Positions 27,500 through 64,000 of a stretch of DNA of 64,000 nucleotides are shown here, piece by piece. Every line of letters begins with the position of its first letter. The stretch's first letter is position 1. The notes beneath the pieces were generated by a model. That model searched no databases and had not been told where the DNA came from. It saw only the letters and a list, made by a program, of their open reading frames with translations. Origin of the DNA: Cohnella faecalis (GTDB lineage Bacteria > Bacillota > Bacilli > Paenibacillales > Paenibacillaceae); assembly GCF_003570905.1 (NCBI RefSeq), contig NZ_QXJM01000039.1:1550001-1614000 (forward strand), in the 5' to 3' direction. Made by a program: the position numbers and the translations under genes.

Positions 27500-27523
27500 T
27501 TCCAATAGCTTGACTATCATCAA

Positions 27524-27558
27524 CAGCCTGAAGCCCGTTCTGTACGGGTTTCAGGCTG
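27524..27558 (+). terminator. Hairpin after the SLH giant (no U tract)
   Basis: CAGCCTGAAGCCCG (27524-27537) pairs with CGGGTTTCAGGCTG (27545-27558) with one G-U pair and a seven-base loop. No T run follows, so it may be a weak terminator, a processing site or an mRNA stabiliser between two giant surface-protein genes. Confidence 0.5.
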
Positions 27559-27595
27559 GATGAGCATTAACGCGAAGCCTGAGGAGGACCTTGTC

Positions 27596-30500: not shown

Positions 30501-33500
30501 TATCGAAAGTCTGCTCATCAACGTTCTCGCAACGGCGGACGGCGCAACCGTCGGCGGAGCCGTCGGCTGGAATGAAGGCACTTCCGTGCGCAAGCTGTAT
30601 GCCGACAGCGTGAAGATGACCGTGAGCGCCCCTAATGCCAAGGCGGGCGGATTGGCAGGCTACAACAAAGGGACCGAAACCGCTGTTATCGCCGACAACT
30701 ACATGTCGGAAGTCCAGCTTACGGCAGCTTCCACAGCCGGAAATTCCACTTTAGGAGGCATCGTGGGATTGAATGACGGCAGGGACGGCAGTCTCGACAG
30801 CGGCGATCCGAAGACGGCTGTCAGCTCGATTCGGAATAACCGGATTTTGGGCAGCCTGACGGTGAATTCGCCGGATTCCAAGGTCGGCGGACTAGCCGGA
30901 GAGAATCGCTCCGTTGTAGCGAACAACAGCATTTCCGACGGCTTCCGAGTGTCGTCCCAAGGAAGCGGCAACACGGTCGGGGGACTGGTCGGATTGAATA
31001 CGAAAACGGTGTTTTACTCGTTCTCCAATGCGGGCTTGACTCTGGGAGGCAGCCGGGTGGCGGCGGGAGGGCTTGTCGGCGAAAATACCGGACTTGTCAG
31101 CTCCTCCTACATCGCCAAGGATGTGACGGCGCAAATTAGCGGAACGTCGTCCGCTTACGCCTATTTGGGCGGTTTGATCGGCAAAAACAGCGGCATCGTC
31201 GAAAAATCGTACACTTCATCCGTTGTGACCGCCAATGGCGCTTATGTATGCGTCGGAGGTTTGACCGGTTGGCAGGCCGGCGGCAGCGTGACGAGCAGCT
31301 ACGCGGCCAAAAACGTGCTGGCGAAAGGGTCAAGTTCCTTCTCGGGAGGACTCCTCGGAAGAATCACGGCCGGAACTATCGGCGACAGCTATTCGGCAGG
31401 GCGGATTTCCGGAGCGAGCGGCGCCTACAGCGGGGGGTTCGCCGGAAGATACGACACTGCAAACAAGGAGCTTTTGAACAACAGCTACTATGTAAAGGAT
31501 GAAAGCCTCGGCATTAACAGCGGCCTTCTGGACTTTGCGGCAGGAAACTATTACGAGCTGAAGCTCTATATGCGTCTGTCTCCGATTCTATCGGCAAGCC
31601 TGGCGGACAGGGAAGCGTTCAAAACGTTGTCTGGCTGGGATTTCAGCAGCCAGAACAGACTGTGGAAGTACGGTTCGTCTCAAGCGGAGTACGCCTATCC
31701 CGAATTGGTGCTTGATGCGAACAGCGGAGGAGGCTCGCCTCAAACCGATGTGGGCACCAACATTAGCTGGTATACGCAGCATAAGGACGAGCTTCGCTTC
31801 TATATCGATTCCGAAGCCGAGCTGGCGGGGCTGGCGGCTATCGTAAACGGAAGCGTGACGGGACTTCCGAAGTTTGATTTTGCCGGAAGAGTCGTCGAGG
31901 TGACGGCTCCCGTCACGATCCAGTCCGCGCAGTGGGCGCCTGTCGGGAACAGCGAAGAGAATGCCTTTCAGGGCAGCTTCGACGGCGGCAATCATTTAAT
32001 AAGCGGCCTTAGAGCGGATGGACAGGATTTTACCGGATTGTTCGGCGTTATCGGCAATCGCGGCGAAGTTCGCAACGTGAAGCTTGCTCCGGTGTCCGTC
32101 ACGGGAACGGGCAGTGTCGGAGGTTTGGCCGGCTTGAACAAGGGCAGCATCGCGCAAGTGGAAGTTATTCTTGCCGACGGAGCTTACGTATCGGGCGGTG
32201 ACCGTGCGGGAGGCGTAGCGGGTGAGAGTCGCGGAACCGTCCGGGATGTCGCCGTAACCGTGGACTCGTCGGGAGAAGTCCGCTCCGAAACCGTTGGCGC
32301 AGCGGTCGGCGGGGTCATTGGGGAAGCTTCGGCAGGATCGTTAGCCGACGCAAACATTGCATTGAATGGCGGACAAATCAAGGGCACAGGCTCCGGCAGC
32401 AGCTCGGGAGGCGCAGTCGGCGTCTCCGGCGCGGGCCATTCGATCAGCGGCATAAGGCTGCTTGCCGATAATGCTGGCGTGGTTAACCCGGTGAACATTA
32501 CGGGTCACGGGAATGCGGGAGGCATCGCAGGGGACAAGAAGGGGAAAGGAATTGCCGAGTGGGATGTCGCCGATGTGACGGTGGAGCATGTCGTCATTTC
32601 CTCGGGCAACGGCGGAAACGCGGGAGGCATTGTCGGAACGGTGGAGAACGGCGCCGTTCGGAACGCGGTTTTCGCCGGGGCAATTCGCATCAGCGCCGAC
32701 GGCGTAAGCGCGGGAGGGCTTGCCGGTAAAAGCTTGAACTCCATCTTGTACAAAGGAAAAGCGACGCCTGAGCTGACGTTGTCCACAACGTCGGAGGAAA
32801 GCTATGTCGGAGGCTTGGCGGGAATAATCGAAAATACGGGCTCTGATACGGCATTCGATTTCGGCAAGCTGCTTCCTGTATATCGAGGTATTACGCTTTC
32901 CGAGTCCGAGGGCGGAACGATCAGCGTTCAGGCAACGGGCTATCGGGCCGATGTTTCGGTCGGCGGCGTTGCGGGGAAAAATGCGTCCTCATCCGTTTAT
33001 GAGACGAGCTCGGATACGAAGCTTGAGGCGACAGGAGTCAGAACGGTCAACATCGGCGGTATTGCGGGCTGGAACGAAGGCGATATTATCGGCGGCACAG
33101 CCGCTTCCGATATTACGGCTTCCGATTCCGGCATTTACAATGCGGGAGGAGTTGTCGGCTTTACGTCAGGCGGACGGATTGTCTATTCGCGGGCGGATGG
33201 CGGCAAAGCGATTGCAATCGGCAGCGCGGCGGCCATCCAGCAAGTTACTCCCGCCACCTATGCGGGAGGCTTTGCAGGCAGAGCGGCCGATACGACGATT
33301 CGGAACTCGTCCGCCGACTCGGTTGTGACGGTATACTGCGACAATGCGCACAACACGGTGTACGCGGGCGGCTTTGCCGGGCTGCTACAGTCCGGCATCT
33401 ACGGCAGCGGAACGATTAAGCGGTCTTATGCGCAAGGATCCGTTACCGTATCGGGAAAAAGCGGTTCGTATGCCGGAGGCTTTGCCGGAAGCATAGAAGG

Positions 33501-36500
33501 TTATGTCATCGAAGAAGCTTACGCTTCCGCGACGGTAGCGAATACGGCGTTCGACGCCAGAAGCGGCGGCTTTGCAGGCGTAATCGAGCAAAGCGCAACG
33601 ATCGAGCAAGCTTACGCCGTCACGAGCAGCGTGGAGGCCAAGGGCTCGCACGGAGCGACAAGAGCTTATGCCGGAGGCTTCGCAGGGTATAACAACGGCA
33701 GCCTGACGGAAACGTACGCCTCCGCTTTGCGCGTGGCCTCTGTAGCCAATGGCTCGAATTCTTATGTAGGCTCCTTCATCGGCTACAACTTCAGGGACGG
33801 TCAGGTAAACGGCTCTTATTATGCGGATGCGGGCAAAGCCGGAATCGGGCACGGAACGTCCGCTCAAAGTCTTGAGCCGGTCGACTTCTCCGGGCGGCAG
33901 CCTCTTGCCGGATGGGATTTCTCCACAGACGATGCCCATTGGGCTTATTTGGCGGGAGTGAACGGCGATAAACCGGTGCTGAGGAATATAACCAACTGGA
34001 CGTTCGCTCCCGACTTGACCTTCCTCATGGAAGCGGAGTCCGTTGACGAGCTTGTCATTTTCAGCGAACGCCAGCTTGGAGCAGCGGTTCTGTTAAGCAA
34101 TGACGAGGATTTGAGCTTCTACCGTTTGTACGATAAAGCCGCGACGCAAAAGCCTAGGTTATCGAAGCTGCGGCTGGAGGCGGATTTGAACCTTTCAGGC
34201 TCGTTGTGGATTCCCTTTGAGCAGTTCGAAGGCGTCTTTGACGGCAACGGAAAAACAATCGCCGGTATGAGCTACTACGGCATGGACTACGATCGCTATG
34301 GCTTCGTGCGGAGCAACAAAGGAACTATCAGCAACATTGCGTTCAAAGACGCCCGTATCGAAGCGGGGGGCGATGTCGGAATCGTGGCGGGAGAAAACGC
34401 GGAGAGTGCCGTCATATCCACCATCACAATAAGCGGAGAAGTGGCCGGAAGCGGGGACTATGTTGGCGGCGCGGCAGGAAAAAGCGAAGGCTCCTTGACC
34501 GGGATTACCGTTCGGGGGCTACGCGTCGACGGGCGCCATTACGTTGGCGGCGTTGCGGGCGCGGCGGCAGGCATCTCCACGGTAACGGCGGAGGATGTAA
34601 CGGTTAAGGGCCAGAGCTTCCTTGGAGGAGCGGTCGGAAAAGCAACAGGTCTCGTCCGCGATATTACAGCCCGGAACGTGACGGTGGAAGCCGCAGCCGG
34701 AACGGCGGCGGGCATCGTGCCGGAAAATGAGCATGGCGTACAAAACGTTAAGCTGAGCGGGGCAGCCGTTACAGGCTCAGGCCTCGTCGGAGGGATCGTT
34801 GGCAAGTCGTCGTCGGTCATTAGCGATGCTTCCGTTCAAGGGGAGCTGCTTGCGCACGGAGGCGTTGTCGGCGGCATTGCTGGCAGCAACGAAGGGACTA
34901 TCGAAAATTCCCGGTTCAATGGCCTTATTGCGGGCACGGGGCAAGCTGCGGGCGGCATAGCGGGCGACAACGGAGCCCGAATTACCGAATCGTATGCAAC
35001 CGGAAGCGTCGAGCTCGAAGCGGCCGACGCGCAGGTGAAAGTCGGCGGAATCGCGGGAACCAATGGATCGGCGGCAATCGTCGAAGAAAGCTTTTCCTCG
35101 GCTTCCGTTCGAGCGAGGGGCGATAACGCCAGCGCGGGAGGAATAGCCGGAGAGAACGAAGGAAGCTTGCGCGGCGTCCTTAATGCCGGGAATATCGAAG
35201 CTTCGGGAGCAAGCTACGCCCGGGCAGGCGGCGTAGCAGGGTACGCGTTGGCAGGGAGCATTAACAACGCGCTGAGCTACGGGCAAGTCGAAGGAAGCAT
35301 TAACGGACGGATGGTGTACAAAAAGACGTTTTACGGCGGAATCGCGGGGCAGGCGGAAGAGCAAGCGTCTTTCGAAAATTCATACAGCGACAGACAGATG
35401 CTCAAGGAAATCATTGCTTACAGCGACAGCAGCGGCCATTTCGTGCGGTCGGTTCAAGGGAAAGCCGTGAACGCAGGCACCGCCGCTCTTACAGAGGGCG
35501 ACCTGCCGGCAGGCTTGGACGACCAAGTATGGCGGGCGCAAGCGGGATTCTATCCGCGCCTTATTGCCTTCGACGGAGTAGACACGGCGAAGCTGGCGGC
35601 AGCGGCGGTCAAGCTGAATGAACGCGATACGGCCTACGATGTGAAGTCGGACTACGTTCTGACGCAGGATTCCTCCATCGTATGGAGTACGGTCAGAAAC
35701 GGCGGCGTCATTCTGCTTACCGCCTCTCTCCAGCAGGAGAGCCGAACGATAGCCGTGAACAAACCGGCGCTCATGTACGCCGATACAGCCGGGAAGCCGT
35801 CGGGATTGACGGACAGCACCTTCAAGGAATCGGTTCAAGTATCGCTGACTACCGATGAAGCGGGAGGCGTCATCCATTACACATTGGACGGCAGTCTGCC
35901 AACGGAGGAATCTCCGGTCTATGACGGCGAATTGACTTTATCCAAAACAACGACGGTAAGAGCGATCGTCAAGGTTGAAGGCAAAAACGACAGCGATGCG
36001 GCGCAAGCCGTGTATACGAAAGAAGCCGTTTCCGGAGGCGAGGGAGGCGGAGGATTCCCTGCCGGCGGCGGAGCAACGGTTCCTCCGACCGATTCGGACA
36101 CTGAAATTTGGGTGAACGGCAAGGCGGAAAACGTTGGTACGGAAAAGGCGTCGTCCGAAGGAGGACGCGTAACGACAACGATCTCCGTCAATGAAGAGGC
36201 TATGAACAAGCTGCTGCAGACGTATGGAGACAACGCGGAAATCGCCGTTGTTTTCAACAAGAAGTCGGAAGTATCGGCAGCGGAGCTGAGCGCGCAGCTC
36301 GTCAAGGCAATGGCGGATACGAAAGCGTTCCTCAAGGTGGATATCGGCAACGTCGCTTATCGCATTCCGGCAGCTCAGCTTTATCAAGAAGCCATTCTCC
36401 AAAGGCTGGGGGGACAAGCGGCTGCGGCGGCGGATGTCCGGGTTCGGATCGAAATCTCCATTCCGGAACAGGCTCGGCAATTGGAGCAAGCGGCATCCAA

Positions 36501-37359
36501 TGGAGGGTATACTTTTGTCGTTCCGCCGACGGCATTCAAAGTGACCTATGCTCTCGGCTCCACGGTTGCGGAAGCGAGTCTCTATGACGCTTATGTGGAA
36601 CGGAGCTTCGTTCTGTCTTCCTCCGCTCCGGAAGCGTCGGGGATGGCAGGCGTCAGCGTTGCGGAAGATGGAACGGTCAGTCCTGTCCCAACCCGATTCA
36701 GCGTCTCCGGCGGAACAAAGGCTGCCGTTATGAAGAGCCTTGCCAGCGGCGGCACGTTCGCGATCGTCTCCTCCGAGGCGAATTTCCGCGATCTGTCCGC
36801 TCATTGGGCGAAGCAGGCCATAAACGATCTGGGCGTCCGATTGATCTTGAATGGCACCGGAACAGGCTTGTTTGAGCCTAACCGCAGCATTACCCGGGCA
36901 GAGTTCGCGGCGATTGCAGTCAAGGCGTTGGGGCTGCAGGGGGTTTCCAGCACGGGCAGCGCTCTATTCACCGATGTGAAGGCAGCGGATTGGTATGCTC
37001 CTTATGTTGGAATCGCGTATCAATTCGGTTTGATTTCCGGGTATAGCGACGGCAGCTTCGGAGGGAAGAATTCCATTAGCCGCGAGCAGGCTATGGTCAT
37101 TATCGCAAGAGCGATGAAGCTGGCCGGACTTCAAGCAACCGTCACGGAGGCGGAAGCGCAGCAGCTGCTGGCTTCCTTTGCCGACGCGGACGAAATATCG
37201 GGCTATGCCAAAGCCGACATTGCCGCAAGCGTCAAAGCGGGTTTGGTGTCGGGCAGAAGCGGCGCCGAAGGCACGGCAATTTCTCCGGGTGAGCAGATGA
37301 CACGGGCTGAGGTAGCTGCGATTATTCGGAACCTGCTGAATTTGTCCGGCTTGATCTAA
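27596..37359 (+). CDS. Giant GLUG-repeat SLH-domain surface protein, about 3254 residues (frameshift near 27768)
   Basis: ATG 27596 follows GAGGAGG. The signal peptide is SAALLALLLAWGTML ending RASA. The frame breaks at 27765-27771 (GATTCTCC): YTTFTIDS should continue SAKLAGIAKLVNDG one frame back. The body is dozens of GLUG-type repeats (GGIAG, GGLVG, GGVAG plus hydrophobic/polar strands) expected to form a right-handed beta-helix. It is divided by three module starts with an FxI..xxELAGLA..VN pattern and a W.P(V/I)G...F.G.FDGGNH-like strand (near 27770, 31800 and 34080). Near 35830 is a chitobiase-C-terminal-like segment (GVIHYTLDGSLPTEE), then a GGEGGGGFPAGGG linker and three SLH domains (FRDLSAHWAKQAI, FTDVKAADWYAPY, FADADEISGYAKA). 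Likely a wall-anchored adhesin or sheath fibre; ligand unknown. Confidence 0.85.
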
Positions 37360-52959: not shown

Positions 52960-53943
52960 GCGCTCGATTGCACTTTTGGCCGAATGTACGGTACCTCGTC
53001 CCACTGTTGCGCGCTCGACTGCACTTCCCGCCGAATGTACGTTACCTCGTCCTACTGTTGCGCGCTCGACTACACTTCCCGCCGAATGTACGGTACCTCA
53101 TCCCACTGTTGCGCGCTCGACCGTACTTCCCGCCGAATGTACGGTACCTCGTCCCACTGATGCGCGCTCGACCGCACTTCTCGCCGAATGTACGGTACCT
53201 CATCCCACTGATGCGCGCTCGACCGCACTTTTGGCCGAATGTACGGTACCTCATCCCACTGATGCGCGTTCGATCACACTTTCGGCCGAATGTACGGTAC
53301 CTCGTCCCACTGATGCGCTCTCGACCACACATCCCGCCGAATGTATGGTACCTCGTCCCACTGTTGCGCGCTCGATCGCACTTTTGGCCGAATGTACGGT
53401 ACCTCGTCCCACTGTTGCGCTCTCGACCGCACTTCTCGCCGAATATATGGTACCTCGTCCCACTGTTGCGCTCTCGACTACACTTCCCGCCGAATGTACG
53501 GTACCTCGTCCCACTGCTGCACTCTCGATTGCACTTTTGGCCGAATGTACGGTACCTCGTCCCACTGTTGCGCTCTCGATTGCACTTTTGGTCGAATGTA
53601 CGGTACCTCATCCCACTGTTGTGCTCTCGATCGCACTTTTGGCCGAATGTACGGTACCTCGTCCCACTGTTGTGCTCTCGATCGGACTTCCGCCGAATGT
53701 ATGGTACCTCGTCCCACTATTGCGCTCTCGACCGTACTTCCCGCCGAATGTACGTTACCTCGTCCCACTGTTGTGCTCTCGATTGGACTTCCCGCCGAAT
53801 GTATGGTACCTCGTCCCACTGTTGCGCGCTCGACTGCACTTCCCGCCGAATGTACGGTACCTCATCCCACTGTTGCGCGCTCGACTGCACTTCCCGCCGA
53901 ATGTATGGTACCTCGTCCCACTGTTGCGCGCTTGACCGCACTA
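52960..53943. repeat. Tandem array B: 20 units of 51 bp
   Basis: GCGCTC/GCGCTT recurs every 51 bases from 52960 to 53928, with one missing base near 53690 (CTTCCGCC for CTTCCCGCC). A unit reads GCGCTCGACTGCACTT, then CCCGCCGAATGTACGGTACC, then TCGTCCCACTGTTGC. Units vary between CTTCCCGCC and CTTTTGGCC, between TGTACGG and TGTATGG, and between GTTGC, GATGC and GTTGT. Nearly all carry the palindrome GGTACC. All three + frames and at least one - frame are open with 17-residue periods, and the single-base loss shifts them, so I treat it as non-coding. It occupies most of the 1.2 kb between the MFS and oxidoreductase genes. Confidence 0.95.
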
Positions 53944-55082: not shown

Positions 55083-55115
55083 CTATACAATTGACACTGG
55101 ATATTATTGTATAGT
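55083..55115. promoter_or_regulatory. 10-bp inverted repeat spanning the -35 region
   Basis: ACTATACAAT (55083-55092) and ATTGTATAGT (55106-55115) are perfect reverse complements with a 13-base spacer. The left arm overlaps the -35 element and the right arm ends at the -10. No U tract follows, so a second operator is as likely as a terminator for the oxidoreductase gene. Confidence 0.5.
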
Positions 55116-55120
55116 ATATT
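55091..55120 (+). promoter_or_regulatory. Predicted sigma-A promoter of the metallophore operon
   Basis: TTGACA (55091-55096) is a perfect -35; TATATT (55115-55120) is the -10 with an 18-base spacer (GTATAT one base earlier gives 17). Transcription would start near 55127, just before the Zur box. Confidence 0.65.
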
Positions 55121-55134
55121 CACTCCAATACTTA

Positions 55135-55149
55135 TTGTAATAATTACGA
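55135..55149 (+). promoter_or_regulatory. Zur box (14 of 15 positions match)
   Basis: TTGTAATAATTACGA matches the Bacillus 7-1-7 Zur site TCGTAATnATTACGA at all positions but the second. It lies immediately downstream of the predicted -10 and about 28 bases before the first start codon, so bound Zn-Zur would block transcription. This predicts that the whole operon is induced by zinc starvation. A Fur or PerR site would have TGATAAT/TTATAAT half-sites, which fit less well. Confidence 0.8.
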
Positions 55150-55177
55150 TTATGACAACGGTTATTGGAGGTTTTCG

Positions 55178-56437
55178 ATGGCGCATCTTTTAATGATCGA
55201 AAGTTGGGTAGGAGCGAGCGGCAACCTGTTGCCGCCTCTCCTTCATTCGCTTGGACACACCTATACTTTCGTTACCCGCAAGCCCGAGCATTACCAAAGC
55301 GCGCACAGCACGGAGAAGCATCCGGTGGTACGGTATGCCGACTCGGTGCTCGTCGCGGAAACGAATGACAGCGCTGGCTTGATTAAGCTTCTGCAGCCGT
55401 ATCGTTTTGACGGAGTCATTACGGTCTGCGATTACTACATCGAGATCGCGAGAGAGGTAGCCAAAGCCTTTAGCCTCCCTTGTCCTTTTCCGGATGAAGT
55501 GAAAACCGTACGGCAAAAGCATCTCATGCGCCAAGCGCTTGACCGGGCTGGTCTTGCCAACCCGAGCTATCGTCTCGCGCATAGCCTGCCCGAAGCGGAA
55601 GAAGCGGCTGCTGCGATCGGCTATCCGTTAGTGTTAAAGCCGGTTGATCTGGCATCCAGCGCATTTGTTAGCCTCATTCGCAATGAGAAGGAATTGCAAG
55701 ACGGTTACGAGGCTCTGGAAGCTTTTCCGCTTAACTTCCGAGATCAGGAAAGAGACTGCACTTATCTCCTTGAGGAATATATGAGCGGAGAGGAGGTTAG
55801 CGTAGAGAGCGTCTCTTATTATGGCGAGACCGCCGTGCTGGGCGTTACGGACAAATCCGTTACGGGGACTCCTTATTTCATCGAAAACGGTCACATGTTC
55901 CCGGCAAAGCTGAGCGATGAAGCACGCACCGAGGTTACGCAATTTGTCCGGGACGCGCTGAAAGCCGTCGGCTTTGATCATGGCATTGCCCATACGGAAG
56001 TGAAGCTTACCGCGGAGGGTCCCCGGATCGTCGAAATCAATCCAAGAACGGCCGGAAATTATATTGTGGAGCTTATCCAACGAGTTACGTGTGTCGATTT
56101 GCTCCAAGCGTTTGTCGAACTTTCCTTAGGCAAAAAACCAACTATCGCAACAAAGGACGACGGTATGGCCAGCGCGGCGGTTATGTTTCTCGTTCCCCCG
56201 CAAAGCGGTACCCTTGCCCGCATTCAGGGGCTTGAATCGCTCGAGTCGGATGAGCATATTGTCCGCTATAAGGTGGACAACTGCGAAGGTCGGTCTATTG
56301 CGGCCCCGATCGATAACGCTTGCTACCTGGGTCACGTTATCACGCAGGACAGAGAAGGGTCGAATGCAAGACTTTATGGCGAAGAAGCGCTCAAGCGAAT
56401 TATCCTCAGCTTTGAGAATAAGGGGGCGGAGGCGTGA
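55178..56437 (+). CDS. ATP-grasp ligase of the Zur-box operon
   Basis: 419 residues from ATG 55178 after GGAGG. A CarB/BacD-like layout: N-terminal pre-ATP-grasp segment (LLMIESWVGASGNLLPPLL), ATP-binding lysine strand YPLVLKPVDLASSAFV (about residue 150), LLEEYMSGEEVSVESV, and Mg-binding RIVEINPRTAGNYI near residue 290. Such enzymes join a carboxylate to an amine through an acyl-phosphate. In this context it may build an amide or peptide-like bond in a metal chelator. First gene of the operon; GTGA overlap with the next gene. Confidence 0.8.
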   Translation: MAHLLMIESWVGASGNLLPPLLHSLGHTYTFVTRKPEHYQSAHSTEKHPVVRYADSVLVAETNDSAGLIKLLQPYRFDGVITVCDYYIEIAREVAKAFSLPCPFPDEVKTVRQKHLMRQALDRAGLANPSYRLAHSLPEAEEAAAAIGYPLVLKPVDLASSAFVSLIRNEKELQDGYEALEAFPLNFRDQERDCTYLLEEYMSGEEVSVESVSYYGETAVLGVTDKSVTGTPYFIENGHMFPAKLSDEARTEVTQFVRDALKAVGFDHGIAHTEVKLTAEGPRIVEINPRTAGNYIVELIQRVTCVDLLQAFVELSLGKKPTIATKDDGMASAAVMFLVPPQSGTLARIQGLESLESDEHIVRYKVDNCEGRSIAAPIDNACYLGHVITQDREGSNARLYGEEALKRIILSFENKGAEA

Positions 56438-57282
56438 AATCTGTTCCGATCCATTCCCGATACTCCGTGTCCGAGCTGCGAGAGGCCATTCTGGAAGGCA
56501 AGCTGGGACCTAAGCCGGAAGTCTTGCCGGTTACGGGATCGTCTTCCATTTACCAAACGACTCAGTTTCCGTCCTCCAAGATCAAATATCACAATCATTA
56601 TTTGCTGTTAAGAGTAGAATCGTATTTTGGCGCTTGCTCTCACACAACGGATCAACTGGATTGGGAAGCTGCGGCGCAATTGTCCGGGCTTTCACTCGAT
56701 GCCGTCCTGCGGGATGAGAGACTCCCCGTACAAATTGCGGCGATGGATGCTTATCTGGGCGTCGTCTATCCGCACCAAAAGCACTGTACCCAAGTCGTTG
56801 ATATTCCGGCGGGAACGCCCATTCAAAAAGCAAAGCTGCGCGATGCCCTAATCGCGGATATGGCCGACATCAAAGCGTCTCAGAAAGTAGCGCTTATCGG
56901 TGTGGTCAATCCTCTTGTCGAGGCCATCCGGCAGCGAGGGGGAACTTGCCTGCCTTGCGATTTGCAGCTCGAAGAAACGCAGTGGGGAGATGCGGTTGAA
57001 AAGGATATGGATCGGGTGCTGGATCGTGCCGACAGCGTCATCTGCACCGCTATGACATTGAGCAACGGGACGTTCGACCGAATTGTGGAGCGCGTCCGCG
57101 TAAGAGGGATTCCTCTGACCGTCTATGCGCAAACCGGAAGCGCCGTTATCGCTCAATTCAGAACGAAGGGCGTTACTTCGCTTATTGCAGAGCCATTCCC
57201 TTTCACTCAGTTCAGCGCCGGCGCTTCGCAGCTCTATTGTTACTCAAGCGGCAAAGGGAAGGAAGCTGCCCATGGATTATAG
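56434..57282 (+). CDS. DUF4213/DUF364-like protein, putative metal-chelation family
   Basis: 282 residues from GTG 56434, overlapping the ATP-grasp stop. The N-terminal half resembles the enolase-N-like DUF4213 domain (SSIYQTTQFPSSKIKYHNHYLLLRV, GACSHTT). The C-terminal half is Rossmann-like DUF364 (KVALIGVVNPLVEAI, DSVICTAMTLSNGTFDRIV, GIPLTVYAQTGSAV). Pfam describes both domains as putative heavy-metal chelation; no reaction is established. Within a zinc-regulated operon it may be a biosynthetic enzyme or metal-handling factor. It overlaps the methyltransferase gene by 11 bases. Confidence 0.65.
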   Translation: MKSVPIHSRYSVSELREAILEGKLGPKPEVLPVTGSSSIYQTTQFPSSKIKYHNHYLLLRVESYFGACSHTTDQLDWEAAAQLSGLSLDAVLRDERLPVQIAAMDAYLGVVYPHQKHCTQVVDIPAGTPIQKAKLRDALIADMADIKASQKVALIGVVNPLVEAIRQRGGTCLPCDLQLEETQWGDAVEKDMDRVLDRADSVICTAMTLSNGTFDRIVERVRVRGIPLTVYAQTGSAVIAQFRTKGVTSLIAEPFPFTQFSAGASQLYCYSSGKGKEAAHGL

Positions 57283-58069
57283 AACGGATACGGATAACTT
57301 CCTGCATACGAATCCCTCGCTCTATCTGGCGTTTAACGGTGAGCATGACTCCAGCATGGCGCACTTCATACATACGCTGCTGATCGAATACAAGGCTGGG
57401 AAAAAGGTGCTGGACGTCGGTTCCGGACCGGGGCGCGAGGTGGCTTATCTAAACAGCGTCGGTTACGAGGCCGTCGGTCTGGACAACTCGGAAGCTATGC
57501 TTTCATGGGCTAGAGAGCATTATCCCGGATCGAAATTTGTACTCGGCGATCAGTCCGACTTTTCGCTTCAACAGATGTTTGATGCCCTTTATTGCGTAGG
57601 CAGCACCTTCTTGTACAACTTTACTAATGAAGAGGTGCTCGCAAGCTTGCAATGCTTCCGCAAACATCTTCGCCCAGGAGGGCTCCTCTATCTGGATATG
57701 CGAAATGCCGCCTTCTTCCTGACCAAGGAAGGGCAGTGTTGGCTTACGGAAGAGCTGGTTGAACAGAGAGAGGCAAACGGCACGACAGTATCTCTTAAAA
57801 CGCGCTTTAGCATCGATTTGGCCGCTCAAATGCTGGAGCGGGACTATTGCTGGACGGTTGCCGGGTATGACCCTATTGAAGAGCATTTGAGACACCGGCT
57901 TCTATTCCCGCAAGAGCTGGCGCATTATCTCGCTGTAAGCGGGTTCCGTCTCGTGCAGCTTTTCGATAAACCGGCGCCGCATGTAGACAGCTTTGATCGG
58001 GATCGTCCTCTAACCTATAGTCATGACTTGTTGGGCACCCGCATGCAAATCATTGCGCAAGCCTTATGA
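57272..58069 (+). CDS. Class I SAM-dependent methyltransferase
   Basis: 265 residues from ATG 57272 (AAAGGGAAGGAAG upstream); the frame extends further 5' only into the preceding gene. SAM-binding motif I VLDVGSGPGREVAYL is at about residues 48-62, acidic motif GLDNSE follows, and CVGSTFLYNFTNEE and LRPGGLLYLDMRN are the later core motifs. It probably methylates the product of the operon or an intermediate. A nicotianamine-synthase-like aminobutyrate transfer, as in opine metallophores, is not indicated by the sequence. Confidence 0.8.
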   Translation: MDYRTDTDNFLHTNPSLYLAFNGEHDSSMAHFIHTLLIEYKAGKKVLDVGSGPGREVAYLNSVGYEAVGLDNSEAMLSWAREHYPGSKFVLGDQSDFSLQQMFDALYCVGSTFLYNFTNEEVLASLQCFRKHLRPGGLLYLDMRNAAFFLTKEGQCWLTEELVEQREANGTTVSLKTRFSIDLAAQMLERDYCWTVAGYDPIEEHLRHRLLFPQELAHYLAVSGFRLVQLFDKPAPHVDSFDRDRPLTYSHDLLGTRMQIIAQAL

Positions 58070-58107
58070 AAATCATATCCCCACAGCATTGTGGAGCGGA
58101 GGTTACT

Positions 58108-59700
58108 ATGAAAAATCTTTTTTTCGCAGCGCTTCTATTCGTAATTATTACAACATCTGCATGCGGCAACAATACGAATTCAACAAACGACGCTGCCGGT
58201 AAGCCTAGCAACGGGACGGGGACGGAGCAAGCAAGCGCAGGCACGGACAAACCGAACGATCAAGAACTGATTGTCGCAGGCCAGGAAATCGCGGCAAGCC
58301 TGGACCCTGTCCAACCGCTTACGTCCAGCTATCTGAGAAATATCGGCGCGGCGGAAGCGCTGTTCATCGTTAACGCCGAGGGCAAGGTCGAGCCTTCGCT
58401 GGCCGAAAGCGCAACCGAGGTCGATCCGACTACGTGGGAGATCAAATTAAGACCTGAAGCGCGCTTCTGGAGCGGAAAAGCGATCGATGCGGATGCGGTC
58501 ATCGCCTCCCTGGAGCGCTCCAAAGCTCTTGATCTGCAAGCGAAGCCGTTTCTGGAGGAATTAACGTTCGCCAAAGCGGACGATTACACTCTGCGCGTCA
58601 AGACCAAGCGCAGCCATCTGTCGGTGCCCTTGAACCTTTCCTACTACCAGACGGTTATTCACAATACGGCGGCCAAGCACGATGCCGTTCCTACGATGGA
58701 CCTGTCCGGCATGTACAAAGTGACCGAGTTTATTCCCAAACAGAAATTGGTTCTGGAAAAGAACGAGAGCTATTGGGGTAAGAAGCCGAAAATCCAACGG
58801 GTCGTCTATGAGGAGATTAGCGAGGAGCAAACGAGGGTGCTTTCCGTATTGAGCGGACGAAGCCAAGTCGCATTGAATATTAGCCCTTCGAGCTTGGCTC
58901 AGCTCAAAGACAGCAAGGAGGCGGTTCTCTCCGCCGTTCCGGCGGCCAACACGCAAACGATTTATCTCAATTTGAGCCGGCCGCAGTTGAAGGATGTCAG
59001 AGTCAGGCAAGCTCTGTCATGGGGACTGAATCGGGAGGATCTCGTTATTCTGGCTGCGGAAGGGCAGAGCTTTCCGGTCAGCACATGGTTAAGCTCCAAT
59101 CCTGCTTATGCAGAAGCGCGAAACGCGGTTTACGCCAAGTTTGACCCGGAAGAAGCTTCCCGGCTATTGGATGAGGCAGGCTGGAAGAAGGGCTCCGACG
59201 GCATTCGATACAAGGATGGCAAACCTCTTACTTTGCGCTTAATGACCTGGGGCGGCGATAAAGCGTTGGGCGAAGCTTTGCAAAATCAATGGACCGGCAT
59301 CGGCGTTAAGGCGGAAGTGCAGCACGGGGACTACAGCTTAATCGAAACGGCGCGTGAATCCGGAGATTGGGACGCCTCGATTGAAGCATGGAGCACCTTC
59401 GGGGATGAACTGTCCTTATTGACAGGCCAGTATGCGCCGGAAGGAAGAGCGAACTATGGCGGCTATAACGATGAAGAAACTAATCAATGGTTGTCGCAGC
59501 TGGCCGAGGCGTCCGACGAGGCGGCGCGCCATTCGTTGGCGCTCAAGATTAACGAGAGGGTCGCGCAGCAGGCGCCCGTCATCAGCTTGTTCCCGCGTCC
59601 ACAAATTTCGGCGATCAGCAGCAAGCTGCATGGCTTCAAGGAACACTTCAGACAGTTTGAGAACGTCGTGAATGCGGATCTGACTTTGGATTCCAAATAG
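58108..59700 (+). CDS. NikA/CntA-like ABC transporter substrate-binding lipoprotein
   Basis: 530 residues from ATG 58108 after GCGGAGG (an ATG at 58066 has no ribosome site). Lipobox TSAC with Cys19, then a polar linker rich in Asn/Gly/Thr. The mature part is of the peptide/nickel-binding family: LDPVQPLTSSYLRNIGAAEAL, WEIKLRPEARFWSGKAI, DVRVRQALSWGLNRE and LLDEAGWKKG. Family members bind peptides, nickel, or opine-type metallophores. Position in the operon suggests uptake of the metal-loaded chelator. Confidence 0.85.
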   Translation: MKNLFFAALLFVIITTSACGNNTNSTNDAAGKPSNGTGTEQASAGTDKPNDQELIVAGQEIAASLDPVQPLTSSYLRNIGAAEALFIVNAEGKVEPSLAESATEVDPTTWEIKLRPEARFWSGKAIDADAVIASLERSKALDLQAKPFLEELTFAKADDYTLRVKTKRSHLSVPLNLSYYQTVIHNTAAKHDAVPTMDLSGMYKVTEFIPKQKLVLEKNESYWGKKPKIQRVVYEEISEEQTRVLSVLSGRSQVALNISPSSLAQLKDSKEAVLSAVPAANTQTIYLNLSRPQLKDVRVRQALSWGLNREDLVILAAEGQSFPVSTWLSSNPAYAEARNAVYAKFDPEEASRLLDEAGWKKGSDGIRYKDGKPLTLRLMTWGGDKALGEALQNQWTGIGVKAEVQHGDYSLIETARESGDWDASIEAWSTFGDELSLLTGQYAPEGRANYGGYNDEETNQWLSQLAEASDEAARHSLALKINERVAQQAPVISLFPRPQISAISSKLHGFKEHFRQFENVVNADLTLDSK

Positions 59701-59709
59701 GCGGGATTT

Positions 59710-60678
59710 ATGTACAAGTCTTTTTTACGCAAGCTGCCGGAAGCTTTCATCACGTTATTTTGCGCCACGCTTATTATCTTTGTATTGATTCGTCTGGCTC
59801 CCGGAGATCCGGTTAAAGTGCTGCTGAGCCATTCGGGAGAGGTCGCCGGAAGCAAGCAAGCCTATGACGAGAAAGCGGCCGAGCTGCGCGCGCAATGGGG
59901 CTTGGATCGAAACATGATCGTACAATATGGGGAATGGACCAAGCGCTTGCTGCAACTGGACTTGGGAGCTTCCATCCATACGGGAAGACCGGTCGGCTCG
60001 GAAATAGCGGGCAGACTTCCGGCAACGATCATGCTGTCTGTATTCGCTCTTCTCGTTCAAGTCGTGCTGGGACTGTTCTTCGGAACGGTCTCGGCGCTTA
60101 AGGCGGGCAAGACGTACGACAATGTCATCAGACTCGCCTGTGTTACTCTGGCTTCCACCCCGGCGTTCGTTATGGCGCTGTTCTTATTATCTTTTTTTGC
60201 AGTGACGTTGAACGTCTACGAAATAAGCAGCGAAGCTAGCTTTGCTAGACTATGGCTTCCCGGCGTTACATTGGGCCTTATGGGAGCACCGCCGTTCATA
60301 CGGATCGTGAGGGCGAACCTGTTGTCCGAGTTTGGCAAAATTTATGTGCTCTCGGCTATATCGAGAGGGTTGAATCGAAAACGGGTAGTCGGGCATGCCT
60401 TGCGCAACGCGCTGCTGCCGGTCATAACGATGGTTGCGCTGTCTCTTGCGACTCTCGTTAGCGGCGCCGTCGTTACCGAAAGCATTTTTTCCTGGCCGGG
60501 CGCCGGCAAGTATGCTCTCGACAGCATTCTGCTTAAAGATTACCCGGTCATTCAAGGGTATGCGTTGGTCATGGTATCCATCGTAATTCTTATTAACTTA
60601 CTCGTCGAAGTTGCGTACGCTCTCATCGATCCTCGTATCCATCGCAGAGGAGAAGCAGGGGGAGAGCGGTATGCCTGA
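59710..60678 (+). CDS. NikB/CntB-like ABC transporter permease
   Basis: 322 residues starting at ATG 59710, nine bases after the lipoprotein stop. About six membrane helices; typical features are the N-terminal helix ITLFCATLIIFVLIRLAPGDPV, the conserved YVLSAISRGLNRKRVVGHALRNALLPVIT cytoplasmic loop (EAA-type) and GAVVTESIFSWPGAGK. Forms the transmembrane channel with the next gene, which it overlaps by eight bases. Confidence 0.9.
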   Translation: MYKSFLRKLPEAFITLFCATLIIFVLIRLAPGDPVKVLLSHSGEVAGSKQAYDEKAAELRAQWGLDRNMIVQYGEWTKRLLQLDLGASIHTGRPVGSEIAGRLPATIMLSVFALLVQVVLGLFFGTVSALKAGKTYDNVIRLACVTLASTPAFVMALFLLSFFAVTLNVYEISSEASFARLWLPGVTLGLMGAPPFIRIVRANLLSEFGKIYVLSAISRGLNRKRVVGHALRNALLPVITMVALSLATLVSGAVVTESIFSWPGAGKYALDSILLKDYPVIQGYALVMVSIVILINLLVEVAYALIDPRIHRRGEAGGERYA

Positions 60679-61498
60679 CTCCAACAATCCGATCAGCTTC
60701 ATTTTCGGCCTCCTTATCTTAAGTCTGTTGGCCGTTTCTATTTTGGGCGCGCGGTGGATTGCCCCTCATGATCCGGTGAAGCAAAATGCGTCCGAACGAC
60801 TGGAGAAACCAACCGTCCAACACCCTTTGGGTACGGATCGCTTCGGCAGAGACGTCCTTTCCCGAACGCTTTACGGAGGGAAAAACACGATGCTTTCGTC
60901 CGTCTTCGCGCTATGTACCGCTCTTTTGATCGGGCTGCTGACCGGCTTGGCCGCCGGAATGTTTCACGGCGCGATCATCGACAGGCTGCTGATGCGCCTC
61001 ATCGATGTGCTGTTAGCCTTTCCCTTTATGGTGCTGGCCATGGTCATTGCGGCTTTATTCGGCACCAGCCTGATCCACCTTCTAATCGCTGTCGTGTCGG
61101 TATGGTGGGTTTCCTTTGCGCGATTGACGCGCAGCGTCGTGCTGCATGCGAAGAATGAAACCTCCTTTGCGGCGGCCAAAGTTCTCGGGGCAACGAGCGG
61201 AACGCTCATCTTCAAGGAGCTGCTTCCGAAAGCGTTAAGTCCGGTTCTTATTTTGGCGACCTTTGAGCTGGGCAGCCTCATTCTGTCCATAGCGGCGCTT
61301 TCTTTCCTGGGATTGGGCTCGCAGCCGCCGACTCCCGAATGGGGCAGCATGCTGGCGGACGGGCGCGATCATTTTATGCAAGCTCCGCACATTCTGATCG
61401 GCCCCGCTTTGTTTATTTTTCTGACGGTGCTGGCTTTTAACTTGATCGGAGAAGGGCTGCGGGATCGGCTGGATCCTTATGAAAAATCGGGGCTGTAG
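60671..61498 (+). CDS. NikC/CntC-like ABC transporter permease
   Basis: 275 residues from ATG 60671 (GGGGGAGAG upstream). The IAPHDPVKQNASERLEKPTVQHPLGTDRFGRDVLSRTLYGGK stretch, split over residues 30-75, is diagnostic of DppC/NikC-type permeases, as are AAKVLGATSGTLIFKELLPK and LGLGSQPPTPEWGSML. About six membrane helices. Co-translated with NikB-like and the dual ATPase. Confidence 0.9.
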   Translation: MPDSNNPISFIFGLLILSLLAVSILGARWIAPHDPVKQNASERLEKPTVQHPLGTDRFGRDVLSRTLYGGKNTMLSSVFALCTALLIGLLTGLAAGMFHGAIIDRLLMRLIDVLLAFPFMVLAMVIAALFGTSLIHLLIAVVSVWWVSFARLTRSVVLHAKNETSFAAAKVLGATSGTLIFKELLPKALSPVLILATFELGSLILSIAALSFLGLGSQPPTPEWGSMLADGRDHFMQAPHILIGPALFIFLTVLAFNLIGEGLRDRLDPYEKSGL

Positions 61499-61509
61499 GA
61501 GGCTCAAAC

Positions 61510-63123
61510 ATGTCGACAAAAGAAGGCGGGACGATCTTGCAGGTCAGCGGCCTGCAAGTGGCCTATCGCCAAAACGGGCAGTCCGTAACGATATTGGATA
61601 ACCTCGCGTTTGAGCTAAAAAAAGGCGAAATCCTTGCCCTGATTGGAGAAAGCGGGTCGGGAAAATCGACGATTGCCAAGGCGGTCACAGGTTTGCTTCC
61701 CCCTTCCGCACAGATCGGCGGCGGAGCTTTGAAGATCGGCTCCGCCTTGATCGCGGATATGTCCGACAAGAGCGTACAATGGGAGCGGATTAGGGGAAGA
61801 GGGATCGCCATGCTCTTTCAGGACGCGCAGCAGGCGCTTAATCCCGTCATGAAAATAAAAGAGCATTTTCGAGAGAGCCTTCTTTTTCACCGGCTGGCTT
61901 CATCCGAAGCTGAAATCGTGTCCATAAGCGTCAACCTGCTGACCAGGCTCAACTTTGCGGAGGGGCATCGCATTCTCGATTGTTATCCTTTCCAGCTCAG
62001 CGGCGGCATGTGTCAACGGATCTGTCTGGCTCTGGCGCTATGTCTTAAGCCGGCCGTGCTCATTGCGGACGAACCGACCTCCGCGCTGGACACCGTAAGC
62101 CAGAAGGAAGTGCTTGATTTGTTGAAAAGGATGCAGGAGGAGCTTGGCTTGACGGTTCTTCTGATTACTCACGATATTGCCGTGGCGAATGCGGTGAGCG
62201 ATCGAGTCATTGTGTTGAACAAAGGGGTTATAGCGGAAGAAGGCGACACGAGAGCTGTATTCTCGAAGCCCCAGGCTGCCTACACGCGTCAATTGCTGTC
62301 TTCGCGATCTTCAATCGCCAAGCGGCCGCGAAATCGCGAGCAGCCGCATTCGGGCAAGCCTTTGCTCGAAATCGTTCGGCTGGAAAAGACGTTTAATCGG
62401 AAGAAGCGAGTTTTGCACGATGTCAATCTTACGTTGAACAGCAAGGAAATCGTCGGCATTCTCGGGCAAAGCGGCTGCGGAAAATCAACGTTGGCCAAAT
62501 GTATCGCGGGCTTGGAGACTCCGAACGGAGGACGCGTGGTCTATCGCGGCACCGACATTAGCCGTCTGCAAGGCAGGGCGAAACGCGACATTTGCAAGCA
62601 CATCCAATTGGTGTTCCAGGATGCGAGAGCCAGTCTTAATCCGGGGCGCACTGCTTTGCAGCTCGTTCAGGAGCCGCTTCGTTACTTGCGGATCGGAAAC
62701 GAAAAAGAACGGGAAGCAATGGCCAGGTTCTATCTGCAAGAAGTGGGAATTGTCGGAGACATGCAAACAAGGAGGCCTCCTCAGCTAAGCACGGGGCAAT
62801 GCCAGCGTATCGCCATTGCAAGAGCGCTCGTTCTGAGTCCGGAAATTCTTATTTGCGATGAAGCGGTATCCGCTTTGGATATGAGCGTGCAGGCGCAAAT
62901 ATTGGCGTTGCTGCAGCGCCTTCATAAGCAATTCGGATTTTCGATCCTTATGATTTCGCACGACGTCCGAGTTCTCCGATCCTTTTGCCATCAAATCGCA
63001 GTGATGAACGATGGAAGCTTCTGCGAAGTGAAGAGGGCAAGCGAACTCATTCATGAAAGCGATCAGCCGCATACGCAATTGCTGCTCAAATGCGCGGGAG
63101 ATTTGGAGCAAGGTCTTTATTAA
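61510..63123 (+). CDS. Dual ATP-binding subunit of the Nik/Cnt-type transporter (NikDE/CntDF fused)
   Basis: 537 residues from ATG 61510 after TAGGAGG. Two full ABC ATPase domains are fused. Domain 1 (about 1-265): Walker A GESGSGKST, signature LSGGMCQRI, Walker B VLIADEPTSALD. Domain 2 (about 285-530): Walker A GQSGCGKST, signature LSTGQCQRIAIARAL, Walker B ILICDEAVSALD. The second signature has Thr in place of the first Gly and the second Walker-B loop reads DEAVSALD, both tolerated variants. In nickel and staphylopine transporters these are two separate genes. Confidence 0.9.
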   Translation: MSTKEGGTILQVSGLQVAYRQNGQSVTILDNLAFELKKGEILALIGESGSGKSTIAKAVTGLLPPSAQIGGGALKIGSALIADMSDKSVQWERIRGRGIAMLFQDAQQALNPVMKIKEHFRESLLFHRLASSEAEIVSISVNLLTRLNFAEGHRILDCYPFQLSGGMCQRICLALALCLKPAVLIADEPTSALDTVSQKEVLDLLKRMQEELGLTVLLITHDIAVANAVSDRVIVLNKGVIAEEGDTRAVFSKPQAAYTRQLLSSRSSIAKRPRNREQPHSGKPLLEIVRLEKTFNRKKRVLHDVNLTLNSKEIVGILGQSGCGKSTLAKCIAGLETPNGGRVVYRGTDISRLQGRAKRDICKHIQLVFQDARASLNPGRTALQLVQEPLRYLRIGNEKEREAMARFYLQEVGIVGDMQTRRPPQLSTGQCQRIAIARALVLSPEILICDEAVSALDMSVQAQILALLQRLHKQFGFSILMISHDVRVLRSFCHQIAVMNDGSFCEVKRASELIHESDQPHTQLLLKCAGDLEQGLY

Positions 63124-63139
63124 GAAGGAGTGATCCGCT

Positions 63140-64000
63140 ATGATCGCCACTATTTTGGACACAATCGGCCATACGCCGCTTATTCGGATTCCAAATACGA
63201 ATAAGGCGAATGAAGGCCAAGTGCTGCTCAAGTACGAGCGGTACAACCCGGGAGGAAGCATCAAGGACCGAGCGGCCATCTATATTGTTGAGGAAGCCGA
63301 GCGCAGGGGGCTGTTGAAGCCCGGGGGTGCGATCATCGAGTCTTCAAGCGGCAATTTCGGTATATCCTTGGCGATGATCGGAGCGGCCAAAGGCTATCGC
63401 GTAATTATTCTGGTAGATCCGAAGACGACAAGCGCCAATTTGGCGCTGTTAAAAGGGTTTGGAGCGGAAGTCATCGTTGTAACCGAGCAAGACGACTCCG
63501 GCAGCTATCATAAAACAAGAATCTCATTGGCCAACAAGCTGGCGCGGGAAATCGAGAATTCCTATCGTCCCGACCAATGCTTTAATCTTCTTAATAGCGA
63601 AGCGCATTACAATAGCACGGCTCGCGAAATTGTGGATAGCTGCTCGAATAAAATCGCGGCCTTCGTAACGGCTGTCAGCACGGGGGGACAATTAGGCGGC
63701 ATTTCGAAATATTTAAAACGAGTTGCGCCGAACGTGCAAATCATCGGAGTGGATGCGGTCGGTTCCGCTATTTTTGGGGGACGTTCCGATTCCTATCGAA
63801 TACCCGGCATAGGCTTGAGCTGGACGCCGCTTAATTTGAACATGGAATACGTCGATTGCGCCTATAAAATAACGGATGAGCAGGCATTCCTCGCGGCCCG
63901 GGCGTTTGCCCGTCATGAAGGCATCCTCATGGGTCCCTCCAGCGGAGCTTGCGCGCTCGTCGCTCTCAAGATGGCGCAGGAGCTTGCGCCGGACCAATGT
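63140..64000 (+). CDS. SbnA-like PLP-dependent synthase (cysteine-synthase family), 3' end missing
   Basis: 287 codons from ATG 63140 (AAGGAG eight bases upstream), open to the window end. Fold-type II PLP enzyme: TIGHTPLIRIP at residues 8-18, PLP lysine in NPGGSIKDRAA, phosphate-binding SSSGNFG, and VSTGGQLGG. The pattern NPGGSIKDR, SSSGNFGI and TEQDDSGSYHKTR is closer to SbnA (N-(2-amino-2-carboxyethyl)-L-glutamate synthase, from O-phosphoserine and glutamate) than to cysteine synthase proper. SbnA with SbnB provides 2,3-diaminopropionate for staphyloferrin B. Here it is probably the entry step of the chelator pathway; an SbnB-like gene may lie just outside. Confidence 0.75.
   Translation, partial: MIATILDTIGHTPLIRIPNTNKANEGQVLLKYERYNPGGSIKDRAAIYIVEEAERRGLLKPGGAIIESSSGNFGISLAMIGAAKGYRVIILVDPKTTSANLALLKGFGAEVIVVTEQDDSGSYHKTRISLANKLAREIENSYRPDQCFNLLNSEAHYNSTAREIVDSCSNKIAAFVTAVSTGGQLGGISKYLKRVAPNVQIIGVDAVGSAIFGGRSDSYRIPGIGLSWTPLNLNMEYVDCAYKITDEQAFLAARAFARHEGILMGPSSGACALVALKMAQELAPDQC

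Follow-up and report, generated by a model that had tools for sequence, protein, structure and literature searches.

The closest described relatives of the system reported here are the opine metallophores (staphylopine, pseudopaline and bacillopaline; Cnt), which combine Zur-type control, an exporter of the CntE family and an oligopeptide/nickel-type ATP-binding cassette (ABC) importer encoded inside the operon, with methyl- and acetyltransferases in some clusters (parts of PMC7438024 report such extra enzymes). The same features recur in a ten-gene operon that runs off the end of a 64,000-nucleotide stretch of Cohnella faecalis DNA (the whole stretch analysed, hereafter the window). Its synthesis genes are different: they encode an ATP-grasp ligase, a DUF364 protein and an SbnA-like enzyme, no CntM was found in the genome, and the importer ATPases are fused in one protein.

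A second comparison is the SbnA-SbnB route to L-diaminopropionate for staphyloferrin B, whose pyridoxal phosphate (PLP) enzyme belongs to the same SbnA/cysteine-synthase family as ours; no SbnB was found here. The genes for [S,S]-ethylenediaminedisuccinate (EDDS) in Amycolatopsis are not known to include DUF364 or ATP-grasp. What EDDS has in common with the operon, as described in parts of PMC6103462 and PMC9252823, is that it is a small chelator under Zur control. Finally, DUF364 proteins of solved structure (PF04016; 3l5o, 3npg) share family and fold with ours and, according to parts of PMC2954201, a neighbourhood with metal ABC transporters; the solved members have no assigned reaction, whereas here the gene sits in a metallophore-type operon. 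In the open-licence literature, which mostly excludes subscription journals, we recognised no description of this operon.

We consider it likely (probability of about 80%) that the operon encodes a Zur-repressed metallophore system of a class for which we found no description, with a core of DUF364 protein, SbnA-like enzyme and amino-acid ligase, CntE-type export and Nik-type import. A first-pass annotation of the window had proposed a metallophore operon under Zur control, distinct from both staphylopine and staphyloferrin B, and as a prediction this holds. All eight genes that it listed are present, with names that agree in kind with Pfam and NCBIfam, and some of their starts have been corrected (Table 1). 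It had also advised looking for an exporter past position 64000, where a CntE-family gene of the major facilitator superfamily (MFS) does lie.

Conservation and distribution of the gene set

We scanned one genome per species (84,980 species) with six peptide patterns, a design that reaches close relatives only, and obtained 29 DUF364 loci, 21 of them in Paenibacillaceae. Most of the gene set recurs in them. Genes were counted by blastp thresholds in 30 loci (these 29 and our own), several of which are cut by contig ends and two of which, L034 and L036, are counted separately. Synthesis genes were found as follows: ATP-grasp in 27, DUF364 in 29, methyltransferase in 22, SbnA-like in 27 and GNAT acetyltransferase in 10. 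Of the importer genes, the binding protein, NikB and the ATPase were each found in 29 loci and NikC in 28.

The distribution is patchy. Operon relatives occur in 5 of 60 genomes and, in a sample of the family, in 12 of 394 (our own included in both counts), two of these 12 carrying an internal stop; a sample of 398 genomes of the phylum (E 1e-20) gave no match besides our own genome, and phage records gave none. Of the same 60 genomes, 8 gave a match for opine dehydrogenase, and a single one (G039) has both systems. The eight opine-dehydrogenase regions fetched from relatives (L071-L078) served as our comparison set.

Zur-type sites in the operon

Sites were scored against the Zur consensus TCGTAATNATTACGA, which has 14 informative positions. 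In the whole window only two sites lie within two mismatches of it, both in the operon (shuffle mean 0.26). One accompanies the TTGACA promoter, which is present as the first-pass annotation had it; the site itself had been credited with 14 of 15 positions by counting the consensus N, and actually matches at 13 of the 14 informative ones.

The operon starts of 27 loci including our own were then compared over the region -250 to +30, with 200 dinucleotide shuffles as controls; L036 (a copy of L034), L027 and L040 (no match to the first gene) were excluded, and L037 was measured at the DUF364 gene. A box of at least 12/14 was found in 17 of the 27 loci (shuffle mean 0.04, largest count 2 in 200 shuffles), of at least 13/14 in 10, and of 14/14 in 4 (shuffle means 0 and 0), so that the box predicted for relatives is indeed there in most of them. 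In 21 of 26 loci (a raw count without shuffle control), a promoter with at most three mismatches stands ahead of the top-scoring box, regardless of that box's score, and in 13 of these 21 the gap between promoter and box is 8 or 9 bases.

The second site lies inside the binding-protein gene. Sites of at least 12/14 occur at the 5' end of this gene in 7 of 28 loci (shuffle mean 0.01), and the same scan at five other gene starts (21 to 28 loci each) gave no site of at least 12/14. In all seven loci, as in L026 (11/14), the intragenic site is in an identical reading frame, and in 6 of the 7 (those with a translation) it immediately precedes the cysteine of the lipobox, in a signal peptide that is otherwise variable. 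Shared descent (a close relationship is apparent between L016 and L017, for example) weakens this site as independent evidence.

Similar sites accompany the opine systems of relatives: 7 of the 8 opine-dehydrogenase stretches contain one of at least 12/14 (L077 does not), and in L071, L072 and L075 it comes immediately before the first frame of the opine cluster (in L071, TCGTAATTATTACGA starts 44 bases ahead of it). A genome-wide look for a Zur regulon through strict sites yielded little: in the C. faecalis genome, five places are within one mismatch of the consensus, against one for a reversed control pattern. Two of the five are those of the operon, a third is a second copy of the promoter on contig C44, and neither of the other two adjoins a gene that we could link to zinc; the best site of znuA reaches only 11/14. 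The copy on C44 (near 2794; L046) closely resembles the start of the operon region but is frameshifted, and is probably an assembly duplicate. From these patterns we predict that Zur binds the operator and represses the operon.

Enzymes of the putative synthesis pathway

The first gene product exceeds the cut-offs of both domains of its type (ATP-grasp_4, 83.4 bits against 27; LAL_C2, 53.1 against 29.4), and its nearest solved relative, 3vot, is an L-amino acid ligase. It is also related to BacD and dapdiamide synthase, whose products are antibiotics. This relationship, together with a binding protein from the peptide/nickel family, would suit an operon for a dipeptide antibiotic or another metabolite secreted under zinc starvation, with the MFS protein for self-protection and the ABC transporter for peptides. 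We regard this as very unlikely, as the exporter belongs to the CntE family and groups beside opine-metallophore exporters, and as most loci keep importer and synthesis genes linked, in many cases behind a Zur box.

The second gene product is a DUF364 protein (PF04016, 45.1 bits against a cut-off of 23). Its AlphaFold model (predicted local distance difference test score 89) is best matched in Foldseek by the DUF364 structure 3l5o (E 2.4e-10, template modelling score 0.61 on the query). Parts of a 2010 paper propose that proteins of this type condense or hydrolyse side chains when metal-chelating compounds are made (Miller and others, PMC2954201). We considered and rejected a catalytic-cysteine or Fe-S protein: Cys172, Cys175 and Cys204 had appeared invariant, though Cys172 and Cys204 are not conserved in five actinomycete rows.

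Three positions of the SbnA-like enzyme are invariant in 25 rows: Arg127 and Ser180, as in SbnA (Arg132 and Ser185), and Cys147, where SbnA has Tyr152 (residue numbers come from a manual count along the alignment). The enzyme also carries a C-terminal extension of about 65 residues. The SbnA residues reportedly serve phosphoserine recognition, as Kobylarz and others are said to have found in 2016. For comparison, L012 encodes, next to SbnB and an IucA/IucC gene, an SbnA that reaches 433 bits on the SbnA model TIGR03945.

Two further enzymes had been thought worth seeking beyond the window, an SbnB-like protein and an opine dehydrogenase, and neither was found. The SbnB family (PF02423) has no match in our 92%-complete genome, against matches in 8 of 14 control genomes, on which ground we rejected free diaminopropionate made by SbnA and SbnB for this genome. 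CntM (PF10100) has no match in the same genome or in the 14 controls, while the same search was positive in 8 of 60 genomes; a blastp search (E 1e-3) of the frames from 34 loci, among them four second fetches of the same genomes, found none either. As neither CntM nor an SbnB-type gene was found, the SbnA-like enzyme is probably not a source of free diaminopropionate.

Profile comparison revealed no resemblance of either the DUF364 protein or the SbnA-like enzyme to CntK, CntL or CntM. The first-pass statement that no CntL/CntM-like gene was seen agrees, for CntM, with the PF10100 result; for CntL the negative covers these two profiles, no search of the genome for CntL having been made. Staphylopine-type synthesis was rejected for lack of CntM and of profile similarity to CntK, CntL and CntM. 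The same observations make it highly improbable that the operon is a variant opine pathway in which unrecognised replacements of CntL and CntM yield an ordinary opine product, although such a pathway would account for the shared exporter family, the Zur-type box and the extra methyl- and acetyltransferases seen likewise in some opine clusters.

Predicted export and re-import

With 576.8 bits on the CntE model NF047574 of NCBIfam (cut-off 235), the operon MFS protein is by sequence a member of the CntE exporter family. It is 53-61% identical to the MFS proteins of four opine operons (L071, L072, L073 and L075); no MFS of this family was seen in L076-L078, and L074 stops at a contig end. The importer parts, by comparison, are only 24-40% identical to their opine-operon counterparts, in the six of the eight stretches with matches (L071-L075 and L077). 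A tree was built from 26 sequences (20 from the operons, 4 from opine clusters and 2 distant ones, L016 having been excluded beforehand), and in it the operon exporters form one group among the opine exporters (support 84/99; 83% of bootstrap trees). By analogy, this likeness suggests that the product may be small, polar and opine-like.

The binding protein falls far below the cut-offs of CntA (NF047575, 108 bits against 800), so that it is not assigned to that family, and of Opp5A_nikA (224 against 600). Taken alone, each part of the importer is ordinary, as would be expected of a common nickel or peptide importer that merely lies beside metabolic genes and serves no metallophore. Such a coincidence is extremely improbable in view of a largely conserved gene set that carries a Zur box and, more often than not, a CntE exporter gene, and of the related synthesis sets found in a second phylum (see below). 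We infer that the Nik-type importer would take the product back into the cell.

Taken together, the metallophore reading would work as follows. When zinc is scarce, Zur would leave its sites at the promoter and within the binding-protein gene, allowing all ten genes to be expressed. The SbnA-like enzyme would attach a three-carbon unit derived from serine to an amino acid or dipeptide at its nitrogen (an amino-carboxyethyl adduct), the ATP-grasp ligase would form a peptide bond, and the DUF364 protein would complete the chelator by a further joining or trimming step; the order of these steps, like the substrates and the product, is conjectural. The methyltransferase and the acetyltransferase may add decorations that some relatives do without. 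Finally, the CntE-type pump would carry the product out of the cell, and its metal complex would return through the Nik-type binding protein, the two permeases and the fused ATPase.

Several observations weigh against this reading. Ten of the 27 operon starts score below 12/14 for the Zur box, among them three clostridial loci (L034, L037 and L038, 9-10) and L025 and L041 (10), and L023 carries a perfect Fur-type site, TGATAATGATTATCA, in place of the box. The CntE-type MFS was found in 21 of the 30 loci: it was not found adjoining the operon in Paenibacillus L018, L020 and L028, in the clostridial loci (L034 has an MdtH-like MFS instead) or on two contigs of metagenome-assembled genomes. The binding protein and the permeases are under all curated Nik or Cnt cut-offs, and the fused ATPase exceeds those of NikD and NikE as the sum of its two halves. 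The SbnA-like enzyme reaches 307 bits on the SbnA model, below the cut-off of 350, its phmmer scores are about equal for SbnA and cystathionine beta-synthase, and in L039 the operon has no SbnA-like gene of its own and a short DUF364 frame. Lastly, as our genome is 92% complete with 7% contamination, absences from it are provisional.

Related gene sets on actinomycete plasmids

Among 72,556 plasmid records, tblastn found nine matches, all in Actinomycetota, and in all nine sets a PLP enzyme of the SbnA-like superfamily lies near the DUF364 gene. Six sets (L090-L095) encode, in the same order, DUF364, the PLP enzyme, an epimerase, an MFS protein and a Nik-type importer, and five of them also have a leading ATP-grasp gene and genes for a methyltransferase and a binding protein (none of these three was found adjoining in L093). 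The other three (L087-L089) have a GHMP kinase and a FecBCD-type importer instead.

The epimerase, a dipeptide epimerase by record annotation or match in the six sets, hints that the ligase may make a dipeptide. We propose, tentatively and at a little less than even odds, a metallophore class that spans at least two phyla (Bacillota and Actinomycetota) and is defined by DUF364 and an SbnA-like synthase. Its scaffold would be an amino acid, or a dipeptide that is sometimes epimerised, bearing an amino-carboxyethyl group from serine; DUF364 would be the class-defining enzyme, importers of Nik or FecBCD type would have been exchanged, and the opine-type exporter would have been acquired in Paenibacillaceae. 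The class is weakened by two findings. The epimerase scanned is nearer an amino-acid racemase: its best score (N-acetyl-D-Glu racemase, 236 against a cut-off of 400) is, like all others, below the cut-off, so that a dipeptide substrate is not established. Five actinomycete PLP enzymes keep the position of SbnA Arg132 and have Gly at that of Ser185 and Tyr at that of the cysteine. In addition, neither of two actinomycete exporters scanned is CntE (L091 is MdtH-like, L089 of another kind).

Zinc or other metals

The Zur-type sites suggest that zinc may be the cargo. The Fur-type site of L023 (8470-8720), which lies in the promoter region shared by divergent synthesis and transport genes, nevertheless calls for caution over a zinc-only system. 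Fur-like 19-mers are also commoner than in shuffles: scores of at least 13 occur in 11 of 26 loci (shuffle 2.41, largest 6), of at least 14 in 4 (0.47, largest 4) and of at least 15 in 2 (0.07). Moreover, the importer is nearest to nickel systems, and the permeases of three actinomycete sets are annotated as belonging to iron ABC transporters. All of this would fit a broad or an iron, nickel or cobalt metallophore that is under Zur in Paenibacillaceae and for which zinc is not the main cargo.

We find such a metallophore rather unlikely. Zur-type boxes are commoner than Fur-type ones, at 17 of 27 loci, and genes for COG0523/CobW-type GTPases lie near the operon in L012, L018 and L020. In 6 of the 9 actinomycete loci, the highest-scoring match to an actinomycete Zur consensus falls in the operon promoter region (a count without shuffle control); in L093 a match there shares the top score, and in L091 and L095 the best one lies outside it, in L095 about 350 bases upstream. 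In an IdeR-type scan of five of the nine loci, none of the four best matches was at the operon promoter. Dual control by Zur and Fur was considered as well and set aside as suggestive only, since several Fur-like matches overlap Zur boxes and L023 alone is clear.

Some of these neighbourhoods deserve description in their own right. In L012 (11676-17468), an operon without its own SbnA-like gene adjoins the CobW/COG0523-type GTPase gene, which has a 13/14 Zur-type site upstream, and a sbnA-sbnB-iucA/C set. L018 and L020 each have two relatives of this GTPase (61-63% identical) within about 7 kb upstream of the operon, and both genes of L018 are preceded by a 12/14 Zur-type site. In L028 (12401-14812), a second binding-protein gene (SBP_bac_5) lies downstream of the operon, and three Zur-type sites of 13-14/14 precede it.

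Gene coordinates and neighbourhood

Table 1. Features of the C. faecalis operon, numbered from the first base of the window.
Feature	Coordinates	Strand	Basis or remark
Sigma-A type promoter, TTGACA-N18-TATATT	55091..55120	+	TTGACA at 55091-55096, TATATT 18 bases downstream
Zur-type operator (predicted) at the operon promoter, TTGTAATAATTACGA	55135..55149	+	13/14 informative bases
ATP-grasp L-amino-acid ligase-like protein (ATP-grasp_4 and LAL_C2)	55178..56437	+	Pfam; nearest solved relative 3vot
DUF364 protein (PF04016)	56434..57282	+	Pfam, AlphaFold model, Foldseek
S-adenosylmethionine-dependent methyltransferase (PF13649), absent from some relatives	57272..58069	+	Pfam; start corrected from relatives, most likely near 57272
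NikA/OppA-type substrate-binding lipoprotein	58066..59700	+	Pfam/NCBIfam; true start probably near 58108
Second Zur-type site, in signal-peptide codons of the binding-protein gene	58139..58153	+	13/14
NikB/Opp2B-like permease	59710..60678	+	Pfam/NCBIfam
NikC/Opp2C-like permease	60671..61498	+	NCBIfam; start corrected from relatives, most likely near 60671
Fused NikD-NikE-type dual ATPase	61510..63123	+	Pfam/NCBIfam
SbnA-like PLP enzyme, 379 aa	63140..64000, continuing to 64279 past the window	+	Reading beyond the window end
CntE-family MFS exporter, 401 aa	64295-65500, past the window	+	15 bases after the SbnA-like gene
GNAT acetyltransferase, 171 aa	65520-66035, past the window	+	Same strand, close behind the MFS gene

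The GNAT gene is followed by frames that resemble, by look only, a TetR regulator and a short-chain dehydrogenase. Upstream of the operon, a tandem array at 52960-53942 consists of about 19 copies of a 51-base unit, and repeat frames similar in look occur in L002 (14010-14345) and upstream of the operon in L035. Farther upstream, the window encodes two giant proteins (2546 and 3231 aa; 19859-37359) that carry S-layer homology domains.

Another observation concerns two gut anaerobes. About 35.9 kb around the operon is at least 99.9% identical between Hungatella hathewayi (CP102274.1; L034) and Eisenbergiella tayi (NZ_MPDJ01000006.1; L036), whose rpoB regions are 79% identical over a 2470-base alignment. 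The common stretch has a sharp end on one side and a contig end on the other, with a gene for a MobA/VirD2-like relaxase upstream, and is probably the result of a recent horizontal transfer.

Implications

In a survey of opine-like zincophores seeded with the opine dehydrogenase, the authors state that their approach detects those zincophores alone whose synthesis requires a CntM homolog (Morey and Kehl-Fie 2020, PMC7438024). The operon would be a case of a zincophore made without opine dehydrogenase, and thus one missed by a CntM-seeded survey. The exporter ties it to metallophores, and the Zur box predicts when the product should appear. The operon also makes the question of DUF364 enzyme function, raised in 2010, a testable one. 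Finally, the actinomycete plasmids and the stretch common to two gut anaerobes suggest that the operon moves between hosts.

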